Shown piece after piece: positions 4,223 through 40,803 of a stretch of DNA of 60,135 nucleotides (positions are counted from its first letter, which is position 1; each line of letters begins with the position of its first letter). The notes beneath the pieces were generated by a model. It did no database searches. It saw only the letters and a list, made by a program, of their open reading frames with translations, and had not been told where the DNA came from. The position numbers and the translations under genes are program-made. The stretch covers positions 1 through 60,135 of the forward strand of contig JAUQQL010000003.1 in NCBI GenBank assembly GCA_030578315.1. Direction: 5' to 3'. Source of the stretch: Thermodesulfobacteriota bacterium. GTDB lineage: Bacteria; Desulfobacterota; Thermodesulfobacteria; Thermodesulfobacteriales; Thermodesulfobacteriaceae.

Positions 4223-6496
4223 TTAAAAATTAAAAAACATAGAACCAAATACTGTAAAAGGTACCCCTGAATAGTAACCAGGTATAAAGTATTTTTTATC
4301 AAATAAATTATAAAATTCTAAACTAGTTTTTACACTTTTTAAATTTAAAAACTTAACTTCAGGTAAAGTATAAGATAATTTTAAGTCTACAGTTATATAT
4401 CCTGGAATTTTTTCCGTAAACTTAAGATCTCCATAAGTTTTACTTATGTATTTTACTAAAGGAATAACTTCCAAAGACTTCCATTTTCCTATTACTCCCA
4501 AAACACACATTTTGTTAGGAACATTTACTACTTGTTTTTTATCAACAGAATAAATTATTCCTTGACTGATTATGTTTCCATCATACTTAAGATTTATATA
4601 AGAAGGGTTAAAAAAAATGGAAAAATTACTTGTTAACCAGTAAATGGTTGCAAGTTCAAAGCCGTATCCTTTAGCTTTTCCAACAAAAGTGTTAAAACTA
4701 ACAGGGTAACCGGTAGTAGGATCAGTTAAAAGTTGAGTAGAATTATCAGGATCTTTCCAGCCGGGAGTAATTGGTGTATTTAAATTCCGGTGTTTTGAAT
4801 AATAAACAGTAGGATAAAATTCCAGCTTTTGTGTTCTTATTCTTAAACCAAGGTCCACAGTATCAGTTTTTTCTGGCTTAAAATCCTTAAATAAATCGTT
4901 AAGAGTAATTCCAAGCTTTTTAAATTTATCGTATAGTCTATAGTATAAATCTACAATTGGCATGTACATATAAGGAGTCTGAAAAATTCTTCCAGCACTT
5001 GCATAAACTTCTAAATGAGGATTTATAGTATAAGAAAGTCCTAAAGAAGGAAGCCAGGCAGTATATCTTTTTCCTCCATGGTCAAGCCGAGGCTCTCTTA
5101 TCAGGAAAGGTGTGCCATTAGTATATACAGTTAGATATCCTTTATTTTTATTATCTTTAGTTTCTAAATATTTAACTCCTATTTGCCAGTTAAACTTATG
5201 ATGACTTCCTGAAAGTTTAAAGAAAGGACTATATATAGGAGCTATACCTTCACTTTTAATAACTCTTCCCCATCCTACGAAAGTTAAACTCCCGTTAGGA
5301 TTAAGCCAATAGTTTTTACTTGGAACATCTTCCCATTTTGAGGCTTGATAGTGGTAACCCACCAGTCCATGAATATTTTTATAGTTAAAAATTAACTGAG
5401 AAATTAGACCATAACGCTTAACTGTCCAACCGCTGTAAGTTACTCCTGGTTTACTTTGTTTTTGTGGTCCAGAAATTCTATTACTTCCACTCCAATCATC
5501 TTTTTCTTCTTCTCGGTAATAAGGCTTGACCTCTAAAATTATACTAGGAAAGATTTTAAAATTTAAAAAGCCAAAAACATCCCAGTTAGCCCATTTTAAT
5601 CTGTAAAATTTGTAATATTGCCAATCTAGAGAAGGATTTCCTGTAAGTTCTTTATTATAGTCCCACCTTCTGTAATAGTTTAAATTATCTGCTTGAGCAT
5701 AGGAAAGACTTCTATATTTGTAATGAGAAATATTATTATAATTTAGCCAAATTTTAAAACTAACGCTATCCCCAAAAGGTTGAACCAAATTAAAATTTAA
5801 ATTTTCTCTCGGACCCAATTTTCCCTTTCCCCTCCACTTATCAGCTTCTGTATAGGAATAGGAAAAAGATAACCTGGTTTTATAAGAAGTTATTTCTCCT
5901 GAATCCAGTCTTATGTAACTTTTAGTATAGTCAAAACTTCCTAAAGCCTGGTTAAATTCTATTTCAAATTTATCCTTAGCCCACTTTGGTCTTAATTCTA
6001 CTACCCCTCCTCTTGTTCCAGCACCTGTTCCAAGTTCAACAGGTGCATTACCTTTATATACAGCTATGGTATCAAAATTTTCACTATCAAGAATATAATG
6101 CCTCGGACCTATAGGATTTCCTCCATAAATAGGTATACCCTCAACAGACATAGTCCCTAAACTTCCACTTACCCCTCTTACTCTAAGAGTAGAATAAGTT
6201 GAAGCAAGATTAGCAGGGTCTGGAGATTCAAAAAGAACTCCTGGAATAAGACTTAAAACAGACCAAATAGAGCTACTTCCCTGTTGTCCCTTTATTTCTA
6301 TACCTTTTCGGGTTATCTCTACCCCAGTATAAACCGTTTCTGCAGTTTCCTTAGTAGGAGCTATAATTTTTTCTCCCCTTACTACAACTTCTGGAAGTTG
6401 CTCAGCTTTTTTAATTTCTTCTGCAAAAATATAACCAATTAAAATAAAATTTATCAAAAATCCACAAAGTAATAAATTCAAATACTTCCTTTTCAT
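4223..6496 (-). CDS. TonB-dependent outer-membrane receptor
   Basis: 757 residues. A signal peptide (residues 1-25, ending IFAEE) is followed by a TonB-box-like LPEVVVRGEK, then a plug domain (SSIWSVLSLIPGVLFES, LRVRGVSG, YGGNPIGPRHY, GAGTRGGVVELRP). A beta-barrel rich in aromatic alternating strands follows and ends in a terminal Phe (GSMFFNF), as outer-membrane barrels do. Such receptors import scarce ligands (siderophores, corrinoids, heme, metal chelates) using TonB-ExbBD energy. A strong promoter lies just upstream, with a short leader carrying GGGGGGA as ribosome binding site. First gene of an operon with a CooC-like ATPase and an exported tetrapyrrole methylase, which hints at a metal or tetrapyrrole ligand. 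No TonB, ExbB, ExbD or ABC importer is in this operon. Confidence 0.9.
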   Translation of the reverse strand: MKRKYLNLLLCGFLINFILIGYIFAEEIKKAEQLPEVVVRGEKIIAPTKETAETVYTGVEITRKGIEIKGQQGSSSIWSVLSLIPGVLFESPDPANLASTYSTLRVRGVSGSLGTMSVEGIPIYGGNPIGPRHYILDSENFDTIAVYKGNAPVELGTGAGTRGGVVELRPKWAKDKFEIEFNQALGSFDYTKSYIRLDSGEITSYKTRLSFSYSYTEADKWRGKGKLGPRENLNFNLVQPFGDSVSFKIWLNYNNISHYKYRSLSYAQADNLNYYRRWDYNKELTGNPSLDWQYYKFYRLKWANWDVFGFLNFKIFPSIILEVKPYYREEEKDDWSGSNRISGPQKQSKPGVTYSGWTVKRYGLISQLIFNYKNIHGLVGYHYQASKWEDVPSKNYWLNPNGSLTFVGWGRVIKSEGIAPIYSPFFKLSGSHHKFNWQIGVKYLETKDNKNKGYLTVYTNGTPFLIREPRLDHGGKRYTAWLPSLGLSYTINPHLEVYASAGRIFQTPYMYMPIVDLYYRLYDKFKKLGITLNDLFKDFKPEKTDTVDLGLRIRTQKLEFYPTVYYSKHRNLNTPITPGWKDPDNSTQLLTDPTTGYPVSFNTFVGKAKGYGFELATIYWLTSNFSIFFNPSYINLKYDGNIISQGIIYSVDKKQVVNVPNKMCVLGVIGKWKSLEVIPLVKYISKTYGDLKFTEKIPGYITVDLKLSYTLPEVKFLNLKSVKTSLEFYNLFDKKYFIPGYYSGVPFTVFGSMFFNF

Positions 6497-6528
6497 TTTA
6501 TCCCCCCTTCATAATACATTTTAAAAAA

Positions 6529-6557
6529 TTTATATCACAAAAGAGTAAGTTTGTCAA
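6529..6557 (-). promoter_or_regulatory. Promoter for the TonB receptor operon
   Basis: On the minus strand TTGACA (6552-6557) and TATAAA (6529-6534) are separated by 17 bases. The leader would be only about 25 bases, which leaves no room for a cobalamin-type riboswitch. No clear Fur-type palindrome was seen. Confidence 0.65.
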
Positions 6558-6705
6558 TAATCTTTTAAATATTTTTAAAAACTACAAAAAAATAATATTT
6601 TAAAATGCCTAACAAAAATTATGAGATAACGACTTTTTTGAAAAACTACAGAAAAGTTTGTTTAGTTTTGAGCTAAAAAGAGAGTTTAAAAAATTTGGAC
6701 TATTT

Positions 6706-7749
6706 TTAAATTAAGAACTCAATAGATTTTTTGAAGTTTTTTAAAAGAGTTAAAGCCTTTTTAGCTAAAGCAGGGCTTAAACTTCCAAGTCCACAAGATG
6801 GGGTAAACAGACTTCTTCCTAAAACTTCTTTCTCTTGCATATTAAGTTTTTGGGCAAGTTTTCTAAGTTGAATTTCAAATTTTTTAAGAATTTCTTCTAA
6901 AGAAGTTTGAGATAAAATTTCTTTTTCGGTTGGAACTACTCCCCAGGCTAAAATACCTTTCTTTAAAAAGTTTTTTAAAGAAGTCTCATAAATAACAAGT
7001 TTTTTGAAAAAGTTAAAACTATCAAAACTCAAAATTTGAATAGACGATTCTAAAATCAGGTCCCACGAAGTATTTGCGCATACATGTATACCTACTATGA
7101 AATTATATTTTTGCAAAGTTTCAGTCACTTCGTTTATCATACTTAAAACTAATTCTTTTGATAAAGTTATTAAAGCAGAACTTCCAAAGCCTGAAAGTCC
7201 TGGTTCATCAAGGAAAAGAATAACTTCTGCTCCAGTTTTTTTTAATTCTTCTGCCTGAGCTAAAGCTTTAAGAGTTATAAACTTTACTAAAAGATCTCTG
7301 CTTCTTTCGTCAAAAATAAGATTTTCATTTTTTTCATTTTTTAGTGCGATACCTAAAGTAAAAGGACCAGTAATTTGTCCCTTTACTATCTGGGGTTTCA
7401 GTTCTTTAGCTTTTTTTATAAAAGGACCAAAAGTTTTAGAAGCCTTAGAAGAAAGCGAAAAATTTTTTAACAGTTCAAATTGATTGTTTTCTATTATTTT
7501 AATATATGTTTCATAAAAATTTAAAATTTCTCTTTCAATCTTAGAAAAAGTTTTTACTTGTTGAGTAGTTTCGTCCCATCCTGGAAAACCTTCTATAAAT
7601 TGAGTAATCATTCCTTCTTTTTCAAATTTAGGAAGTTGAGGCCAAGTTGGAATATCTAAACAGAAACTCATTTCTAAAGCCTCTTCAACCTCAAACACTG
7701 GAAGACTTCCTATTTGAGTAGTTTTTAAAGAAAGACTATTTAATTTCAC
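6706..7749 (-). CDS. Core-MetE / cobalamin-independent methionine synthase-like methyltransferase
   Basis: 347 residues in the UROD/MetE fold. It matches only the catalytic half of MetE, starting with TTQIGSLP and continuing through KGQITGPFTLG and FLDEPGLSGFG. Zinc-ligand candidates are His and Cys in GIHVCANTSW and Cys in FTPSCGLGS. Where MetE usually has a Glu ligand this protein reads ILSFDSF, so an Asp may substitute. Short core-MetE proteins lacking the N-terminal folate half are known or proposed to take methyl groups from corrinoid proteins rather than folates. The start is GTG at 7749 with GGGGAG upstream. It overlaps the end of the VKOR-thioredoxin gene by 14 bases. A methyl-coenzyme-type or methylamine methyltransferase role cannot be excluded. 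Confidence 0.7.
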   Translation of the reverse strand: MKLNSLSLKTTQIGSLPVFEVEEALEMSFCLDIPTWPQLPKFEKEGMITQFIEGFPGWDETTQQVKTFSKIEREILNFYETYIKIIENNQFELLKNFSLSSKASKTFGPFIKKAKELKPQIVKGQITGPFTLGIALKNEKNENLIFDERSRDLLVKFITLKALAQAEELKKTGAEVILFLDEPGLSGFGSSALITLSKELVLSMINEVTETLQKYNFIVGIHVCANTSWDLILESSIQILSFDSFNFFKKLVIYETSLKNFLKKGILAWGVVPTEKEILSQTSLEEILKKFEIQLRKLAQKLNMQEKEVLGRSLFTPSCGLGSLSPALAKKALTLLKNFKKSIEFLI

Positions 7750-8620
7750 AAACTCCCCTGGACTCTTCTTCGCAACCTTTGTTTAAACTGCTTGAAGTAA
7801 CTTTAGATTTTAAAAAACGATAAGCCTTAGATTTAGATTCTACTTTAACTTCAAAAGGAGTGGTTTTGTGAAAAATGGATTCCAAAACTTCCAAAATTTT
7901 ATCTTTTCCGCAAATGATTTCTAAGTGCCCTTCTGATTTTTGGTAAATGAGTGTAGGAACTTGATTAAGGTTTAATTTTTTCATAAAAGGATAGGCTTGC
8001 GAGATTTTAATTAGGTTTAAATTTATATTTTTATTTTTGAAAGTTTCTATTACTTCCTTACAGTGGGAACAGTTTTCGGTGTGAATCAACCAAAAGTGAC
8101 TTTTAGTATTTAATAAAACTGTTAAAGGTTTTAAATTTATAGAAGTTAAGTAAAAAGAAATAACGAAACTTACTAAAGCTCCAGTTATGAAAAAAAATAA
8201 TTCCCAAAGAGAAAAAGGCGAGGCTAGATGAACTAAGGAAAGAATAAAAATTAAAAAGAAAAGAAAAGCCACAGTTAGACAAAAAGAACATAAAAAATTG
8301 ATCTCTACTAACTGTCTTAAAGAAAAAACAACTTCTGCTAACAAGCCCGCTCCTAATAATAAAACAAAAATCAAACGAAATAAGTATCCTTTAGTTTGGT
8401 CATATAAATAAAAAAATATCAGGAGACTTAAAAAGTAAAAAGCTCCTGCCAATAAAAAGATCTTTTTTTCGATTTTCGCAAAATAATCTATTATTTCACA
8501 TCCGTGAGAACGACAAAGGGTTATTCCTTTTAAATTTAGAATATATTCTCCTAAAATTAAACCTATTTCTAAAAAAATTAAAAAATAAATTAAAAAAATA
8601 AGCTTATTTTTTTTAGCCAT
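7736..8620 (-). CDS. VKOR-family membrane oxidoreductase fused to thioredoxin-like domain
   Basis: 294 residues. The first 165 hold about five hydrophobic helices with the VKOR pattern: loop cysteines C36 and C41 (LCRSHGC) and the CXXC active site CSFC at 111-114. A thioredoxin-fold tail follows, with TENCSHCKEV (CXXC at 184-187) and a cis-Pro region NQVPTLIY. Bacterial VKOR proteins reoxidise a DsbA-like partner with quinone, promoting periplasmic disulfides. Here the partner is fused. The C-terminus carries another cysteine pair (KGCEEESRGVC). It is cotranscribed with the core-MetE gene, a link that may be only positional. Disulfide substrates in this window could include the cysteine-rich curlin. 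Confidence 0.85.
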   Translation of the reverse strand: MAKKNKLIFLIYFLIFLEIGLILGEYILNLKGITLCRSHGCEIIDYFAKIEKKIFLLAGAFYFLSLLIFFYLYDQTKGYLFRLIFVLLLGAGLLAEVVFSLRQLVEINFLCSFCLTVAFLFFLIFILSLVHLASPFSLWELFFFITGALVSFVISFYLTSINLKPLTVLLNTKSHFWLIHTENCSHCKEVIETFKNKNINLNLIKISQAYPFMKKLNLNQVPTLIYQKSEGHLEIICGKDKILEVLESIFHKTTPFEVKVESKSKAYRFLKSKVTSSSLNKGCEEESRGVCEIK

Positions 8621-9850: not shown

Positions 9851-11425
9851 TTTTCGAGTATAAAGAAACATACATAAAAAGCTCCAAAAAATACCCCCAG
9901 CTAAGCCCCAAAAATTTCCGTATTTAACAAAAAAAGTAAGCTCGTAAAGGGAACTCACTTCACCTTCCAGAACTTTTTCTTCTTCAAGCTGACTCTCAAC
10001 TACAACCTTTCCTAAAGGGTCTATTATTCCTGTAACACCGGTATTAGCTACTTGAATAGTGTAGCGTCTTGCTTCTACTGCTCTTACCTTAGCCATCTGA
10101 AAATGTTGAAACGGTGCTGAAGTTTTCCCAAACCAGGCATCATTAGTGGCAATAAAAATAAGTTGAGAGTTCTCTTTAGCTCTTTTTTGTAAAAGTTCAG
10201 GAAAAGCACTTTCAAAACAAATAAGAGGTGTAATTTTATAATAGGACTGATTAATTCTAAAAATAAGATTCTTAGAAGTCCCAGGTTTTAAAGTATCAGA
10301 AACTACAGAAATTTCTTTTAAAAAAGGAAAGTACTTACTTAAAGGCACATACTCTCCAAAGGGTACAAGTTTCTCCTTATCATAAAAGTCTATAATTTCA
10401 CCTCCACTCCACACTATTAAACTATTATAAATTTTAGGTTCTTTTTCAGTATAACTTACTCTAAAAGTTCCTACCACAAAAGAAAGTTTTTTAAAAGAAA
10501 GTTTTTTTTCAACTTCGTTTAAAAGTTTAATGAGTTTTAAGGTAGTATCTTTTTCATAAGGAAAATAAAAAGGAAAAGCTGTTTCCGGAAAAAGAATTAG
10601 ATCCGGGCTTGAAGAAAGAGATTTTAACAAAAGCTGAGTATAAACTTTAAAAGAATAGTCCAATTCTCTAGCTTCTTTTAGTTCTTGAGGTATATTTCCC
10701 TGAAGTAAAGCAACTTTTATATTGGATAAAGATTCTTTTAAAATTTTTTCCCATTTTATTTTTTTCCATATTCCTAATCCTAAAACTAATATTAAAATTA
10801 TCAAAAAACCTGTTTGTTTTTTAAAAAATTCTAAATTTATTTTTTTAACATTTAAAAAGTGCCAAATAAAATAGTAAATCCAATAATTGACAAGTACTAG
10901 CAAAAAGCTTAATCCCCAAACACCCCATATTTCGGCAGACTGTAAAATAAGAGAGTAGTTAGAAAGTAAGTATCCAAGTTTTCCCCACGGAAATCCAGTA
11001 AATAGTTTACTTCTAAAATATTCAATCCCGACCCAGCTTAAAGCAAGTGCCAAACCTTTCAAAAAACTTGGTTTTTGAAAGGTTTGTAAAAAATTGTAAT
11101 GAATTCCCCAAAGCCAACTATAATAAAAAGCTAAGTAAAAGGAAAGTAAAAATAAAAGAAAATAAGCTAAAAAAATAGAAAGTCCACCATATTTGGTCAT
11201 AGTGTAAACTAACCAGTAAAGAAGGCTCCCAAAGTGAACACATCCAAAAACTAACCCTGAGATCCAAGGATTACCTCTACAAAAAAAAAGTGGAACTAAG
11301 GAGAACCAACATAAAAAGTGCAAATTCCATTTGGGAAAAGAAAGAGTAAGAAAAAGACCTGAAATAAAAGGCCATAAAAATTCTTTACTGAGCTTTTTCT
11401 TTAAGTTTAAGTTTAAGTTCTTCAA
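9830..11425 (-). CDS. lnt: Apolipoprotein N-acyltransferase
   Basis: Integral inner-membrane enzyme of 531 residues that adds the third acyl chain to the N-terminal Cys of lipoproteins. About seven N-terminal helices (with FRSKLFTGFPWGKLGY) precede a periplasmic nitrilase domain. Catalytic residues are visible as Glu in FPETAFPF, Lys in YDKEKLVPFGEYVP and Cys in LICFESAFP. DAWFGKTSAPFQH and VEARRYTIQVANTG are also typical. The first codon is TTG, with no clear ribosome binding site. It lies inside the end of corC (41-base overlap), so translational coupling is likely. The corC-lnt order is the same as in enterobacteria. Its substrates in this window include CsgG, the RND adaptor and the fused outer-membrane factor, all with lipoboxes. 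Confidence 0.95.
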   Translation of the reverse strand: MKNLNLNLKKKLSKEFLWPFISGLFLTLSFPKWNLHFLCWFSLVPLFFCRGNPWISGLVFGCVHFGSLLYWLVYTMTKYGGLSIFLAYFLLFLLSFYLAFYYSWLWGIHYNFLQTFQKPSFLKGLALALSWVGIEYFRSKLFTGFPWGKLGYLLSNYSLILQSAEIWGVWGLSFLLVLVNYWIYYFIWHFLNVKKINLEFFKKQTGFLIILILVLGLGIWKKIKWEKILKESLSNIKVALLQGNIPQELKEARELDYSFKVYTQLLLKSLSSSPDLILFPETAFPFYFPYEKDTTLKLIKLLNEVEKKLSFKKLSFVVGTFRVSYTEKEPKIYNSLIVWSGGEIIDFYDKEKLVPFGEYVPLSKYFPFLKEISVVSDTLKPGTSKNLIFRINQSYYKITPLICFESAFPELLQKRAKENSQLIFIATNDAWFGKTSAPFQHFQMAKVRAVEARRYTIQVANTGVTGIIDPLGKVVVESQLEEEKVLEGEVSSLYELTFFVKYGNFWGLAGGIFWSFLCMFLYTRKLVIKKV

Positions 11426-33983: not shown

Positions 33984-36900
33984 CTAAAAGTCTGAGAAAA
34001 CAAGAGACTTATCCCAACCTCCTCCCAGAGCCTTATATAAAAAAACATAGCTTTTAAGCCTTTCAGCTTCTAGAGACACTAAATTAAGTTTGGCTTTAAG
34101 AAAATTCCGCTGAGCATCAAGCACTACTAAATAATCTACCAACCCTTTTTCGTACTTTTTTTCAGAAAGTTTTAAAACTCTCTCAAAAGTTTCTACCTGA
34201 GCTTTTTGAAAATTTACTTTTTCAGAAGTAGCTTCTAAATTAGAAAGAGCCTCGTACACTTCTTTAAAAGCTGTTTTAACAGTTTTTACATACTGAAAAA
34301 GAGCTTCTTTTTTTTGAGCTTCTTTAAACTCAATTTCACTTTTGATTTTACCTAAATTTATAAGTGGACCTGTTAAAGCAATTCCTAAATTCCAAAAAGT
34401 AGCTGAGCTTTTAACAAGATTTGCCAACTCTTCACTTTGAAAACCTGCTACCCCAGTTAAAAAAATTCTAGGAAAGTAAAGAGCTCTGGCTACACCTACT
34501 TCAAAATTAGCAGCCCTAAGTCTTTCTTCAGCCTCCACAATGTCTGGCCTTCTTTGTAAAATATCCGAAGGTAGCATAGAGGGAACAGAAGGCAATTTAG
34601 GAAATTCATCTTTTACTTCTATTTCCTTTTCAAAAAGTTCTTTAGGACTAAAACCAGTAAGCAAAGCTAAAACAGACTTTATACTTTCTTTTTTGTTTTT
34701 AAGGTCTTCTAAAAGAATTTGAACAGCTTCGTATTCAGCCTTAGATTGATTTAACACCAGCTCATCTATGAGACCATTTTTAAATTGGAGTTTTCTAAAT
34801 TCGTAAATGTTGCGATATTTTTCTAAAAATTCTTGGGCAACTTTAATCTGCTGTTTTAAAGACAAAAGTTCAAAATAAGCAGCAGCTACAGAAGAAATAA
34901 GTGAAATCTGAAGGGCATCTCTACCAGCTTTAGTAGCTAAGTAATTAGAAAGTGCAGCTTTTTGTTGAGCTCTAAGCCTTCCCCAAAGGTCAAGTTCATA
35001 AGAAACTACAAAAGAAAGAGAAAAAGTTGTATAAGTTCTTCCTCCTAAAGGATTCATAGTTTCTTCGGACAAATGTTCTCTTCTCACTTCTCCTGAGTAA
35101 GATACATAAGGATAAAGCTCGGCTCCTGTAGTGCGAAATAAGGACAAAGCTTTCTCTACTCGAGCTGAAGCAATTAAAAGGTCTTCATTATTTTTTAAAG
35201 CACTTTCTACTACTTTTTCCAGAAAAGGATCTTTAAATTCTTTCCACCAGTAAAAATTAACATGAGTAACATTTTCTACTTTTGGAATTTTTATTTCCGA
35301 AGGAAGCTCTAATTCTGGTTTTTTAAGTTCTGGAGTAAAACTACAAGCACTTAAAAATAGCAAAAAAACAAAAACTATTACATAAAGTTTAGAAATTCTC
35401 TTTAATTTAATTAGTTTTTCAAACCATTCCCTCAGCTTTACTACTAGATAGTAAAAAAGCGGAATAAAGAAAATACCAAATAAAGTGGCAAAAAGCATTC
35501 CAGTAACTACAGTAGTTCCAATAATGTTTCTGCTGTTTGCTCCTGCTCCACTACTAAACATAAGAGGAACAGCTCCAGCTATAAAGGCAAAGGAAGTCAT
35601 CATAATGGGCCTATATCTAAGCCTTGCAGCTTCTAAAGTAGCTTCTAAGAGAGGTATTTTATACTTTTTGAGTCTTTCTTCTGCAAATTCTACAATTAAA
35701 ATGGCATTTTTAGCTGAAAGTCCGACAAGAGTTAAAAGTCCTACCTGAAAATAAACATCATTTTCAAGTCTAAAAATATTTAATCCTAAAGAAGCACCAA
35801 ATATAGCAAATGGAACACTAAGAACTATAGCAAGGGGAGAAGTCCAGCTTTCGTAAAGTGCAACCAGAATTAAAAAAATAAAAATTACTGCATAAACCAG
35901 TACAACACTAGTTTTAGCCTGAACTTTCATTTCTTGAAACGAAGTTCCTGACCAGGAAATAGTATAACCAGAGGGCAAAACCTCTTTAGCTACTTCTGAA
36001 ATAGCTTTTATGGCATCTCCAGAAGTATAACCAGGTTTAGGCTCTCCAGTTACTTTAGCAGAATTAAACATGTTAAATCTCTCAATAACTAAAGCATCCG
36101 AAAGGTTTTCCACTTTTATTAAAGCACTAACAGGTATAAGGTAACCCTTTTTTGAACGTACAAACAAATAAGAATAATCTCTTAAGTCGTCCCTAAATTC
36201 CCCTTCAGCTTGCATGTTTACATGAAAAACTCTTCCATAAAGATTAAAGTCGTTCACGTAATAACTTCCAAAGGTCATAGCTAATATTTTGTAGATGTCT
36301 TCTACTTCAACCTCGTAAGCCATAGCTTTTTCTCTGTCTACCTCTATTTTATAGTGCGGTACATTAGGATTAAGGGTGGTTCTTACTGCCATAAGCTCAG
36401 GTCTCTGGTTAGCTTTTAAGACCAGCTCATTTACATATTTAGATAAATCAGAAATAGAACCCCCGGTTCGGTCCTGTACATATAATTCAAAACCACCAGT
36501 GATACTCATTCCCATAATAGGAGGAGGATTAACCACAAAAATTAAGGCCTCTTTGTTAGGTATAAATTCTCTGGACAACCTTTCAGACAGAGCAAAAGAA
36601 GAACTTTCTTTTCCTTTTCTCTCAGACCAGTCTTTTAAACGAATCCATCCCACACAGGCATCACTTCTAAAGGCAAAGGTCTGCAAGTCAAGCCCAGCTA
36701 CAGCAACCCACTCACTGATTTCGGAAGTTTTTTCAAAAACACTTTCTATCTCATTTACTACTTGTGAGGTTCTTTTTAAAGAAGAACCTGGAGGTAAATA
36801 TCCAAAAACTAAAAGAGAACCTCTATCTTCTAAAGGTACTAAAGCAGTAGGTAAGTTTTTTATTAAAAAGTAGGTCACAGGAATAATGCTTATAAAAATA

Positions 36901-38519
36901 ACTATTCCGACTAAATTAAATTTTATAAACATTTGAACTACATTCAAAAATAACTTACGAGAAAGCTCAAAAACTTCTTGAAAAACCCTTACCGGTAAGA
37001 TGGGTTTTACTTCTTTTTCTTCTAAAAAGATAGCACAGAGAGCCGGAGTTAAAGTTAAAGCAACTACACCTGATAGAATCATAGAAATAGCTATAGTTAT
37101 AGCAAACTGCCGATTAAAAACCCCTGTAAATCCTCCTGTAAAGGAAGCTGGAATAAAAACTGCAGATAAAACCAAAACAATAGCTATAATTGGACCTGTT
37201 ATTTCTTCCATAGCCTTGATAGTAGCTAATTTGGGAGGAAGTTTTTCTTCTCTCATAATTCTTTCAGCATTTTCAATAACTATTATGGCATCGTCCACCA
37301 CGAGCCCTATAGCTAAAATAAGTCCGAAAAGAGTTAAAAGATTTATAGAAAAACCTAAAGCATAAAGTCCTGCAAAGCTTCCTATAATAGAAACCGGTAT
37401 AGCTAAAATGGGAATTAAGGTAGCCTTAAAACTTCCAAGGAAAAAATAAACTACTAAAATTACCAAAATTATGGCTATGATAAAAGTAATCAAAACTTCT
37501 TTAATAGCCTCTTCTATAAAGACTGTTGGTTGATAGGGATAAAAATATTTAAGATCTTGAGGAAATCTTTTAGAAAGCTCTTTTAAGGTTTTATCTAATT
37601 CTTTAGCCACATCCAAAGCATTAGCTCCGGGAGCTAAAAATATTCCTACGGGAATAGCAGGTTGTTTTTTAAAAAAAGAATTACGGTTAAAGTGTTCAGA
37701 TGAAAGTTCAATCGCTGCCACATCTTTAAGCTTTAAGGCAGAACCATCGGGATTAGTACGGATAATAATATTTTCAAACTGAGAAATTGTTTGAAGTCTT
37801 GATTCGCCTTTTACTATATAAGAAAAGTTAGTATAGGAAGAAAGAGGCTCTTGAGCTATTCCTCCTCCAAAAAATTGTTGATTTTGTTTAGAAATAGCAG
37901 AATAAACATCTAAAGGAGTAAGATTAAACTTAGCTAATTTATCAGGCTTAAGCCACACTCTTATGGAATATCTTTTTTCGTCAAAAACAATTACATCTCC
38001 AACCCCGGGAATTCTTTTAAGTTCTTCAAAAATATTTAATATAATAAAGTTAGCAATCTCTACGGGACTTCTCTTCTGTCCTTCAGAAATAAAAGTAACC
38101 ACACTTACTAAATCTGGAGAACGTTCTCTTACCTGTAAACCTTGTCTTTTCACTTCTTCAGGAAGTTTGGGAAGTGCTGTTTGAACGCGGTTATTCACAT
38201 CCATTTTAGCTACATTAACATCTGTCCCTACTTCAAAAAAAACATTGATAGTTAAAACTCCGCTTGAAGAAGCAATACTTGTCATATAAATCATATTAGG
38301 AGCACCATTTATAGCTTCCTCAAGAGGAGCAGCTACTGTATTAACCAGGGTTTCAGCATCTGCTCCAGGATAAACTGCAGTAACCACAATTTGTGGAGGA
38401 GTAAGAGCAGGATATTCCTTTATTGGAAGAGCCTGTATGGCTAAAATTCCTATTAGAACAAGAATAATAGATAAAACTGCAGAAAGCCTGGGTCTTTCTA
38501 TAAAGAAACGAGAAACCAC
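33984..38519 (-). CDS. RND multidrug efflux pump (AcrB-like) fused to outer-membrane factor lipoprotein
   Basis: A single 1511-residue ORF. Residues 1-1040 are a full HAE1 RND transporter: FFIERPRLSAVLSIIL start, PGADAETLVNTVAAPLEEA, VDDAIIVIENAERIM with the proton-relay Asp residues in TM4, GFTGVFNRQFAITIAISM, and TM12 ending PLFYYLVVKLREWF. A basic loop, a new hydrophobic segment and a lipobox (FLLFLSAC, Cys 1059) follow, then a 453-residue NodT/OprM-type outer-membrane factor (SYELDLWGRLRAQQKAALSN, LPSDILQRRPDIVEAEERLR). No in-frame ATG, GTG or TTG lies between the domains. The adaptor gene ends three bases upstream. The internal lipobox predicts release of the channel by signal peptidase II (inference). 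Confidence 0.92.
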   Translation of the reverse strand: MVSRFFIERPRLSAVLSIILVLIGILAIQALPIKEYPALTPPQIVVTAVYPGADAETLVNTVAAPLEEAINGAPNMIYMTSIASSSGVLTINVFFEVGTDVNVAKMDVNNRVQTALPKLPEEVKRQGLQVRERSPDLVSVVTFISEGQKRSPVEIANFIILNIFEELKRIPGVGDVIVFDEKRYSIRVWLKPDKLAKFNLTPLDVYSAISKQNQQFFGGGIAQEPLSSYTNFSYIVKGESRLQTISQFENIIIRTNPDGSALKLKDVAAIELSSEHFNRNSFFKKQPAIPVGIFLAPGANALDVAKELDKTLKELSKRFPQDLKYFYPYQPTVFIEEAIKEVLITFIIAIILVILVVYFFLGSFKATLIPILAIPVSIIGSFAGLYALGFSINLLTLFGLILAIGLVVDDAIIVIENAERIMREEKLPPKLATIKAMEEITGPIIAIVLVLSAVFIPASFTGGFTGVFNRQFAITIAISMILSGVVALTLTPALCAIFLEEKEVKPILPVRVFQEVFELSRKLFLNVVQMFIKFNLVGIVIFISIIPVTYFLIKNLPTALVPLEDRGSLLVFGYLPPGSSLKRTSQVVNEIESVFEKTSEISEWVAVAGLDLQTFAFRSDACVGWIRLKDWSERKGKESSSFALSERLSREFIPNKEALIFVVNPPPIMGMSITGGFELYVQDRTGGSISDLSKYVNELVLKANQRPELMAVRTTLNPNVPHYKIEVDREKAMAYEVEVEDIYKILAMTFGSYYVNDFNLYGRVFHVNMQAEGEFRDDLRDYSYLFVRSKKGYLIPVSALIKVENLSDALVIERFNMFNSAKVTGEPKPGYTSGDAIKAISEVAKEVLPSGYTISWSGTSFQEMKVQAKTSVVLVYAVIFIFLILVALYESWTSPLAIVLSVPFAIFGASLGLNIFRLENDVYFQVGLLTLVGLSAKNAILIVEFAEERLKKYKIPLLEATLEAARLRYRPIMMTSFAFIAGAVPLMFSSGAGANSRNIIGTTVVTGMLFATLFGIFFIPLFYYLVVKLREWFEKLIKLKRISKLYVIVFVFLLFLSACSFTPELKKPELELPSEIKIPKVENVTHVNFYWWKEFKDPFLEKVVESALKNNEDLLIASARVEKALSLFRTTGAELYPYVSYSGEVRREHLSEETMNPLGGRTYTTFSLSFVVSYELDLWGRLRAQQKAALSNYLATKAGRDALQISLISSVAAAYFELLSLKQQIKVAQEFLEKYRNIYEFRKLQFKNGLIDELVLNQSKAEYEAVQILLEDLKNKKESIKSVLALLTGFSPKELFEKEIEVKDEFPKLPSVPSMLPSDILQRRPDIVEAEERLRAANFEVGVARALYFPRIFLTGVAGFQSEELANLVKSSATFWNLGIALTGPLINLGKIKSEIEFKEAQKKEALFQYVKTVKTAFKEVYEALSNLEATSEKVNFQKAQVETFERVLKLSEKKYEKGLVDYLVVLDAQRNFLKAKLNLVSLEAERLKSYVFLYKALGGGWDKSLVFSDF

Positions 38520-38522
38520 TTT

Positions 38523-39647
38523 TTACTTCTCTTCTACTATTTTTTCAATCTTTACCAGCGTATCTGGTCTAAGTTTCATAAGTTGGTCTAAAATTACCAG
38601 TTCTCCAGGTTTTAGACCCTCTTCCACAATAAAATACTCCCCTGTTTTTTCACCTACCTTAATTATCTTAGAAACAGCTCGTTCTTTTTCTACCACGTAT
38701 ACCGTGGTTCCTAAAGGTGTTTGCATTACTGCTTTTTGAGGAACTACTATTGCCTTAGGCCTTGTAAGACCTTTAACTTTAATTCTTACAAATTGACCTG
38801 GTAAAAGTTTTCTTTCAGGATTAGGAAAAACTGCCCTGGCTTTGATTGAGGAAGTTTTTTCATCAATTACGGCATCTACAAAATCAATATATCCTTTTCT
38901 GGAATAAACTTCTCCATTTTCCAAAAGAAGTTCTACCTTTAGACCCTTAAGCTTATGAAAACCTTCTTTAAGTGCCTCACCTTCAAGTTTAAGAAGGTCC
39001 TTATCAGGAAAAGAAAATTCTACATAAATAGGATCAATTTCAGTTATAGTAACGAGAGGGGTGCCAGGATTAACCAAGTTTCCAATATCAACTAGTCTCT
39101 CTCCTACAATACCTGAAGTTGTGGCCAAAACTTTGGTGTATTTTAAGTTTATTTCAGCCTGTTTAAGACGAGCCTGTGCATTCTTGAATTCAGCTAAAGC
39201 ACTCTGATAACTGAATAAAGCCCTATCTCTTTCTTCCTCACTTACTACCCTATCTTCAAAAGATGACTTTATTCTTTTCCAGTCTCTTTCTGCCTTCTCA
39301 AGTTGTGCCTTGGCCCGTTCTAACTGAGCTTTGGCACTTTCGTATTCAGCTTGATAAACATCCGGTTCTATTAAAAAAAGTAAGGTTCCCTTTTTTACCC
39401 ACTCTCCCTCTTTAAAATACATTTTTTCTAAAAATCCAGTAATTCTGGCTGTTATGGTTACTTTAGAAATACTCTTAGTTTTCCCCGGATACTGTAGTTC
39501 TACAGGTAAATTCTTAGGTTCAGGAACTTTAAAGGCTGTAACTAATAAAGAAGTAGCAGTAGAAGAAGTATCTTTCTTGGAAGAACAAGAAACGAATAAA
39601 AGAAAAATAACTAAGGTAATAATAAAATAGCCTAAAAGTTTTTTCAA
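38523..39647 (-). CDS. RND periplasmic adaptor lipoprotein (AcrA/MFP family)
   Basis: 374 residues. Lipobox LFVSC (Cys 21), then VELQYPGKTKSISKVTITAR and TGFLEKMYFKEGEWVKKGTLLFLIEP (lipoyl half), a coiled-coil hairpin (SAKAQLERAKAQLEKAERDW), KYTKVLATTSGIVGERLVD, and the beta-barrel and membrane-proximal parts (IVVPQKAVMQTPLGTTVYVV). It bridges the pump and outer-membrane channel. The start is TTG at 39647 after GAGG. First gene of the operon with the RND-channel fusion. Its promoter overlaps that of the divergent alcohol dehydrogenase. Confidence 0.95.
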   Translation of the reverse strand: MKKLLGYFIITLVIFLLFVSCSSKKDTSSTATSLLVTAFKVPEPKNLPVELQYPGKTKSISKVTITARITGFLEKMYFKEGEWVKKGTLLFLIEPDVYQAEYESAKAQLERAKAQLEKAERDWKRIKSSFEDRVVSEEERDRALFSYQSALAEFKNAQARLKQAEINLKYTKVLATTSGIVGERLVDIGNLVNPGTPLVTITEIDPIYVEFSFPDKDLLKLEGEALKEGFHKLKGLKVELLLENGEVYSRKGYIDFVDAVIDEKTSSIKARAVFPNPERKLLPGQFVRIKVKGLTRPKAIVVPQKAVMQTPLGTTVYVVEKERAVSKIIKVGEKTGEYFIVEEGLKPGELVILDQLMKLRPDTLVKIEKIVEEK

Positions 39648-39673
39648 TTTGAAGTTACCTCAGTTACATCTAA

Positions 39674-39693
39674 TAGTGTAAGCACTTACTAAC
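39674..39693. promoter_or_regulatory. Candidate repressor operator at the efflux promoter
   Basis: Inverted repeat GTAAG-CA-CTTAC (39678-39689) within a longer imperfect palindrome TAGTGTAAGCACTTACTAAC. It lies just after the -10 of the efflux promoter, so a bound TetR- or MarR-type repressor would block initiation. No such regulator gene is adjacent. Confidence 0.5.
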
Positions 39694-39694
39694 A

Positions 39695-39723
39695 AATTTA
39701 GGTCTTTTTAAAAATTTTGTCAA
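39695..39723 (-). promoter_or_regulatory. Promoter for the efflux operon
   Basis: Minus strand: TTGACA (39718-39723), 17 bases, TAAATT (39695-39700). The -35 shares the same bases as the divergent -35 on the other strand. Confidence 0.55.
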
Positions 39724-39744
39724 GAGTGATTAAAAGTATATAAT
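39717..39744 (+). promoter_or_regulatory. Promoter for the alcohol dehydrogenase gene
   Basis: TTGTCA (39717-39722), 16 bases, TATAAT (39739-39744). The leader is about 25 bases with AAGAGGTG before the ATG at 39775. Confidence 0.6.
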
Positions 39745-39774
39745 TATAGAAAAAAACAATAAGAGGTGTAAAAA

Positions 39775-40803
39775 ATGAAAGCTTGGGTTATAGAAAAAGT
39801 AGTAAGTTTACAAGACACTGTAGAGCCTCTTAAGTTAACTAATTTAGAAGACCCAACTCCTCAGGATAGAGAAATAGTGATAAAAGTTTGTGCTTGTGGG
39901 GTTTGTCATACTGAAATAGACGAAATAGAAGGAAGAGCTAAGCCATCCTTTTTCCCTATAGTGCCAGGACATCAAATAGTGGGAGAGGTAGTGGAGGTTG
40001 GAAAAGAGGTTAAAAAGTTTAAAAAGGGCGACAGAGTAGGAGCTGGTTGGATATATTGGGCTTGCGGTGAATGCAGTTTTTGTAAAAAGGAGTTGGAAAA
40101 TCTATGTCCTAATTTTAAAGCAACAGGAAAAGATGTTCACGGAGGTTATGCAGAGTATTTTAAAATTTTAGAAGATTTTGCCTTTTTACTGCCAGAAAAT
40201 CTTTCTTATGAAGAGGCAGCTCCACTTTTTTGTGCAGGAGCTATTGGATACCGGTCTTTAAAACTTACTTATCTTAAAAATGGGGAAAACTTAGGACTTA
40301 TAGGCTTTGGAGCTTCAGGTCATCTTGTTTTAAAAATGGTTCGCTATATTTTCCCAGATAGCAAAGTGTTTGTGTTTGCTCGTTCTCCAAAAGAGAGAGA
40401 ATTTGCTTTAAACATTGGAGCTTATTGGGCAGGAGATATAGATGAAGCTCCTCCAGAAAAAATACATGCAGCTATTGACACTACCCCTGTTTGGAAACCA
40501 CCTTTTAGCATTTTGAAACACTTTTTCCCTGCTGGAAGACTGATAATAAATGCTATAAGAAAAGAAGAAATTGACAAATCTGAACTTTTAAAACTTGATT
40601 ATTCGCGAGACCTTTGGTTAGAAAAAGAAATAAAGTCAGTAGCTAATGTTACCAGAAAAGATATTGGTGAATTTTTAAATTTAGCAAAAAAAATACCTTT
40701 AAAACCTGAAATTCAGATTTATTCTTTTGAAAAAGCTAATGAAGCTCTTTTAGATATAAAAAAAAGAAAAATCAAAGGAGCAAAAGTGTTAAAAGTAGGG
40801 TAG
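39775..40803 (+). CDS. Zinc-dependent alcohol dehydrogenase (MDR family, AdhA-like)
   Basis: 342 residues. Catalytic zinc ligands in CGVCHTEID and the GH pair in VPGHQIVGEV, a structural-zinc set CGECSFCKKELENLC, and a nucleotide fold around LIGFGASGHLVLKM are visible. GGYAEYFKI and FCAGAIGYRSLK resemble the AdhA branch of medium-chain dehydrogenases that act on aliphatic alcohols and aldehydes with NAD(P)H. It starts a plus-strand unit with ispF and mfd. Its promoter is back-to-back with that of the efflux operon, so joint regulation is possible. Confidence 0.9.
   Translation: MKAWVIEKVVSLQDTVEPLKLTNLEDPTPQDREIVIKVCACGVCHTEIDEIEGRAKPSFFPIVPGHQIVGEVVEVGKEVKKFKKGDRVGAGWIYWACGECSFCKKELENLCPNFKATGKDVHGGYAEYFKILEDFAFLLPENLSYEEAAPLFCAGAIGYRSLKLTYLKNGENLGLIGFGASGHLVLKMVRYIFPDSKVFVFARSPKEREFALNIGAYWAGDIDEAPPEKIHAAIDTTPVWKPPFSILKHFFPAGRLIINAIRKEEIDKSELLKLDYSRDLWLEKEIKSVANVTRKDIGEFLNLAKKIPLKPEIQIYSFEKANEALLDIKKRKIKGAKVLKVG

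Follow-up and report, generated by a model that had tools for sequence, protein, structure and literature searches.

The 60,135-nucleotide stretch of Thermodesulfobacteriota DNA analysed here (the window) encodes an RND permease and an outer-membrane channel in one frame, which raises the question of how a single polypeptide could supply parts of a pump that belong in two different membranes. The adaptor-permease-channel gene order of the locus is shared with CmeABC, AcrAB-TolC and MexAB-OprM; in those systems, however, the permease and the channel are separate proteins. AcrB crosses the membrane with twelve helices and has its C-terminus in the cytoplasm. No description of an RND-channel fusion was found in the open-licence papers searched, and the excerpts of PMC8277102, PMC4446572 and PMC2891726 make no mention of one. 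The initial annotation compared the fusion with CusA-TolC-like fusions of Bacteroidetes; five Bacteroidota plasmid records contained neither an HME permease-channel fusion, the longest matched open frame being 1284 aa, nor a TIGR00914 match over the cut-off.

The fused gene encodes two complete halves

The initial annotation had described an uninterrupted frame leading from an AcrB-like N-terminus into a TolC/NodT-type channel, and the analysis agrees. As seen in Table 1, the permease occupies the first two thirds of the frame and a complete NodT-type channel the last third; the single open frame (33984-38519, minus strand) has a GTG start at 38519 and a stop at 33984-33986, with 1511 codons in between and profiles for both halves above their cut-offs. 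The permease half matches Pfam ACR_tran over residues 3-1026, NCBIfam RND_permease_1 (NF000282) over residues 3-1027 with 1264.4 bits against a cut-off of 1250, and TIGR00915 with a score of 1106, above the cut-off of 940.35. Since the heavy-metal profile TIGR00914 (HME, CusA/CzcA) reached only 328 of 701.45 bits, the fused pump is not of the heavy-metal type. Residues D409, D410, K937, R968 and T975, the proton-relay residues of helices 4, 10 and 11, are invariant in alignment A1, and we take them to be equivalent to D407, D408, K940, R971 and T978 of AcrB. The nearest solved chain to the permease by sequence is CmeB (5t0o, 1041 bits).

For the channel, TIGR01845 (outer_NodT) gave 352.4 bits against a cut-off of 210.05 over residues 1051-1501, covering profile positions 2-460 of 460, and the Pfam OEP match also lies within this part. 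An AF2 model of residues 985-1511 had a mean pLDDT of 82.3, and Foldseek with the channel model returned SilC, CusC, OprM and CmeC as top matches. Both halves of the fusion are complete. The window's genome yielded no second permease closely similar to this one, and its contig C37 carries a remote channel-like match with 23% identity.

Table 1. Features of the fused gene and of related genes in the window
Feature	Position	Strand	Basis
HAE1-type RND permease half, residues 1-1026	35442..38519	-	ACR_tran and RND_permease_1 above cut-off
Basic linker K1028-K1044, n-region-like and predicted to be cytoplasmic, following the final helix of the pump	35388..35438	-	Sequence, charge
Additional hydrophobic segment L1045-A1058, resembling an h-region and potentially a 13th membrane helix	35346..35387	-	Hydropathy, AF2
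Lipobox Cys1059 (LSAC), predicted to be residue +1 of the processed channel, with Ser next	35343..35345	-	Invariance among fused junctions
NodT/OprM-type outer-membrane channel, residues 1059-1511	33987..35345	-	TIGR01845, AF2 model, Foldseek
Periplasmic adaptor (membrane fusion protein), just upstream	38523..39647	-	TIGR01730 284.4 bits, HlyD_D23
Apolipoprotein N-acyltransferase (Lnt), within the window	10007..11248	-	TIGR00546 319.9 bits, cut-off 132.9

The junction carries an internal lipoprotein-type signal

Next, the residues joining the two halves were inspected. The junction runs from K1028 through KRISK into LYVIVFVFLLFLSA and then to Cys1059, so that the basic loop, the second hydrophobic segment and the lipobox LSAC of the initial annotation were all found, as was its TTA codon before KRIS (Leu1039, 35403-35405). 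The linker carries a net charge of +5, counted from PLFYY to the best hydrophobic window, and the hydrophobic segment has a maximum 12-residue hydropathy of 3.28. All the hallmarks of a signal peptidase II substrate (basic region, hydrophobic core and lipobox Cys) are therefore present at the junction. The fused channel resembles CmeC, OprM and CusC of the NodT family in its full-length NodT match and in having Cys-Ser at the predicted cut; in contrast to their N-terminal signals, its signal lies behind a twelve-helix pump and begins about 1030 residues in, not at the translated N-terminus. The AF2 model places a short helix directly before the Cys, with low confidence there and across the linker and hydrophobic segment (block means 51-68). 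Among six aligned fused junctions of the family, Cys1059-Ser1060 is invariant and the surrounding stretch is poorly conserved.

To compare this arrangement more widely, ten fused junctions were tabulated, an eleventh (G498) being left out for its broken permease. Every one of the ten has a Cys after a hydrophobic stretch, as does the broken copy. Their lipoboxes read LSAC, FKAC, LHGC, LTSC, ISSC, LVSC, TGGC, LAGC, VSSC and LTGC, with Ala, Gly or Ser at position -1 throughout and Leu, Ile or Val at position -3 in eight of ten. The two off-consensus lipoboxes are FKAC of G003, with Phe at -3 and Lys at -2, and TGGC of G076, with Thr at -3. Ser follows the Cys in nine of ten (Ala in G115), the linkers have net charges of +3 to +6, and hydropathy over the best 12 residues ranges from 2.17 to 3.28. 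The split permeases whose tails were looked at have hydrophilic C-terminal ends without such a hydrophobic segment. The internal signal reported by the initial annotation thus belongs to a real HAE1-NodT fusion that is conserved and recurrent and retains the signal at every fused junction compared. Such retention is compatible with signal peptidase II setting the channel free, although an uncut anchor would need to keep its hydrophobic segment too.

In-frame start codons between the last pump helix and the Cys differ among the fused genes. From PLFYY to Cys1059, the window gene has a single in-frame ATG, GTG or TTG, namely a TTG located 6 residues ahead of the Cys, and therefore its channel should reach the periplasm only within the fusion. 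Neither of the two other frames at the window's junction has an ATG followed by a signal and a Cys. G008 has a GTG at 9 and a TTG at 5 residues before the Cys, G024 a TTG at 28 (where the last pump helix ends) and another at 3, and G076 and G020 an ATG at 13. The G320 gene (L108:2933-7441) has an in-frame ATG at codon 1043, 19 residues before the lipobox Cys and preceded by a purine-rich leader, gggggagaggaaaa; judging by these features, this gene may yield the fusion plus a separately started channel.

Fusions recur among relatives of the window

The window's own genome is G000 in these comparisons. A fused frame open through the junction, the conservation that the initial annotation had proposed looking for, was found in G003 and G008 of the same genus and in G028 and G020 of the same family (84, 67, 58 and 57% identity, respectively). 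A fifth relative, G024, is open at the junction with its permease broken into two overlapping frames of 517 and 993 codons (L044:4886-9389), probably either through an error in sequencing or because this copy is decaying. In a class-level scan, 6 of 41 genomes gave a stop-free match across the junction, and a scan of genome contigs found one relative, L033, which agrees in name and length with the G003 contig. Within the genus (14 genomes, the window's included), three genomes are fused (G000, G003 and G008), seven have adjacent separate genes (G001, G002, G005, G006, G007, G010 and G013) and four lack any match to the junction profile. Separate genes in close relatives, which the initial annotation had regarded as refuting the fusion, thus do occur in the same genus; they do not refute it, because the fusion is conserved in other genomes.

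Across 395 genomes of the phylum, at least seven have an unbroken spanning match (G000, G008, G020, G076, G143, G320 and G115, the last ending at a contig edge); with at most six candidates scored in most genomes and part of the matches listed, seven is a lower bound. Two of 39 genomes in the order of G076 have such a match at E values up to 1e-40, as do two of 149 in the order of G320 (G320 and G498). Positions 4683-8350 of the G498 locus (L161) hold a permease degraded into several frames, a junction that is still open and the lipobox LGGC. In eight more genomes of this order (G509, G569, G462, G476, G540, G555, G552 and G356), one or two stops interrupt the spanning match, and the three that were checked (G509, G462 and G356) have separate genes in the same frame. 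Overall, fusions also occur in branches of the phylum far from the window's family. The initial annotation's view of an HAE1-type fusion as less familiar is fair given the literature searched, but the architecture is recurrent and not unique.

Split relatives and the history of the fusion

The split relatives G001, G006, G010, G013 and G005 have the same adaptor, permease and channel, with permease identities of 57-71%. Channels of the split operons of the genus carry N-terminal lipoboxes, and the two genes overlap in different frames: the channel gene overlaps the permease gene by 4 bases (offset 2) in G001, G006, G010 and G013, and by 8 bases, ATGCGTAA (offset 1), in G005 and G014. Campylobacterota outgroups have 11-base overlaps, ATGAAGCGTAA and ATGAAGCATAA, also at offset 1. 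The relative frame of the overlap is thus shared by these outgroups and G005/G014, a clue in favour of an ancestor with split pump genes. The initial annotation had suggested that loss of a start and a stop joined the genes; given the different frame and 4-base overlap in the nearest split relatives, fusion in this family instead required a length change. In-frame neighbours with a stop between them (offset 0) were found only in more distant lineages, where stop loss is therefore a possible route.

To follow these changes, two permease trees and a channel tree were built. The first permease tree had 26 rows; the second, also with 26, had G509 and G462 added and G115 and Neochlamydia removed; the channel tree had 25 rows, and G498, with its broken permease, is in none of them. 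Each tree required six changes between fused and split states, five or six of them forced by well-supported branches. Repeated fusion and fusion followed by splitting are inseparable by unweighted counting of these six changes, and a single ancestral fusion does not appear to be supported. Within the family, the fused G020/G024/G028 have the split pair G005/G014 as their sister, and the permease trees place the split G001/G006/G010/G013 together with the fused G008. Although G014 (L042) and G005 (L043) belong to different genera, their split pump genes share 93% DNA identity over 4.5 kb, which suggests a recent horizontal transfer.

Plasmids were searched with tblastn, which matched at least 5000 records, and five places were opened. 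Permease and channel genes are separate at the Sulfuricurvum and Arcobacter loci, and the Persicobacter and Phocaeicola permease frames are unfused (1055 and 1035 aa). On the plasmid of Neochlamydia sp. S13 (L120), a channel gene at 5715-7093 is annotated in two pieces beside a separate RND permease.

Divergence falls sharply at the cysteine

Identity between fused sisters was compared over the permease and residues 1026-1058, 1059-1100 and 1101-1505. The values were 88, 40 (30 aligned residues), 76 and 78% for G000/G003, 85, 32, 61 and 67% for G028/G020, and 72, 36, 57 and 56% for G000/G008. As seen, the junction, compared over the few residues it offers (28-30 per pair), is the quickest-diverging part, and the change falls sharply at the Cys. 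Such a pattern, variable and hydrophobic with conservation from the Cys on, is as expected of a cleaved signal peptide. The dN/dS values between G000 and G003 were about 0.07 and 0.13 for the two halves, with dS near 1, and by this measure both halves look to be under purifying selection.

Neighbouring genes and the lipoprotein pathway

The adaptor has its own N-terminal lipobox-like signal, FVSC, and therefore all three pump parts may use the lipoprotein pathway. A TetR-type regulator (Pfam TetR_N) stands upstream of the adaptor in L035, L036, L037, L038 and L043. The window's neighbour is an alcohol-dehydrogenase-like gene on the plus strand (39775-40803), identified by eye, and the gap upstream of the G003 adaptor contains no frame of 150 aa or more. 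The regulator of the pump thus appears to have been lost or moved in the window (gap 39647-39775) and in G003. As for processing, the genome has an LspA gene (109 bits against a cut-off of 25), and its best LolC/E match is below the cut-off (285.5 of 362.45).

A precursor probably processed by signal peptidase II

We consider the fusion to be probably a precursor that is cut by signal peptidase II to free a lipoprotein channel. The permease half would insert with twelve helices and a cytoplasmic C-terminus, and the basic linker and hydrophobic segment would serve as a lipoprotein signal inside the chain, taking the channel domain into the periplasm. Cys1059 would then be lipidated by Lgt and become the first residue of the channel after cleavage by signal peptidase II (LspA); addition of a third acyl chain by Lnt and transport of the channel to the outer membrane by the Lol pathway would follow. 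Pump and channel would be made one to one and then separated, a ratio that would fit the 3:6:3 pump stoichiometry given in the excerpts of PMC4446572. Many TolC homologues are N-terminally lipidated, according to the excerpts of PMC13082787. Those of PMC4486845 describe OprM, CusC and CmeC as beginning with Cys-Ser, CusC and CmeC as acylated, and the barrel of CusC mutants without the Cys as folding badly; since the latter misfold, an unprocessed channel N-terminus should work poorly. The off-consensus FKAC and TGGC, the LolC/E match below its cut-off, the ATG of G320 and the low AF2 confidence at the junction were counted against cleavage.

It is unlikely that the chain stays uncut, with the signal as a thirteenth membrane helix tethering the channel and one chain per protomer working or half-working. 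The continuous frame and hydrophobic segment, linkers of similar length in all fused lineages and the two weak lipoboxes would suit such a tether. Nevertheless, a Cys would be dispensable for a plain anchor, but all ten junctions retain it amid diverging surroundings. The mature N-terminus of OprM/CusC-like channels is located at the outer membrane, far from an inner-membrane helix. The nearest channels need their N-terminal Cys for barrel folding, as the excerpts of PMC4486845 report for CusC. Internal translation restart near the junction, making the channel separately and the fusion a read-through by-product, is improbable. It would agree with the ATG codons of G320 (behind its leader), G076 and G020 and with the overlapping or adjoining genes of split relatives, but the start codons of G008 and G024 listed above and the lone TTG of the window speak against it; restart would be unusable in the window's gene and possible in G320.

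The two of ten lipoboxes that are off consensus would suit incomplete cleavage, or cleavage by a different enzyme such as signal peptidase I or a quality-control protease; with a conserved Cys-Ser exactly where sequence conservation begins, we regard it as very improbable. Finally, we give hardly any weight to two genes joined by a sequencing or assembly error, or to a decaying gene. The draft assembly is MAG-style with 71 contigs, homopolymer T runs lie near the window's junction, and the permeases of G024 and G498 are broken; against these stand the low dN/dS of both halves and the same fusion in separately assembled relatives. A frameshift or sequencing error at the junction, named by the initial annotation as a refutation, is ruled out by this conservation together with the absence of an alternative frame with a start and a signal.

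Implications

The fusion is a recurrent variant of a known tripartite pump, and the unusual, testable claim is the internal cut. We lean slightly towards a broader reading as well, in which a multidrug pump has repeatedly been made as a polyprotein: LspA would cut a thirteen-helix precursor and free the channel, giving a one-to-one ratio across two membranes, perhaps with the channel handed over during synthesis, and the arrangement would have appeared, and perhaps also been reversed, on several occasions, since the signal works in either context. LspA is not known to cut behind any protein of twelve helices. The cytochrome b/c1 precursor encoded by Bradyrhizobium fbcH likewise joins a membrane protein and a periplasm-facing partner in one chain with an internal signal peptide and is then cut; unlike the fusion described here, it consists of different proteins and is cut by signal peptidase without a lipid and without outer-membrane sorting.

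Annotation pipelines may label such fusions as permeases only and miss the channel. Fused and split genes coexist within one genus and offer matched material for tests. Should the precursor be cut, LspA, the antibiotic target to which globomycin binds, would accept an internal site behind a large polytopic protein and thus have a wider substrate range, and the fusion would be a natural means of fixing pump-to-channel stoichiometry across two membranes.
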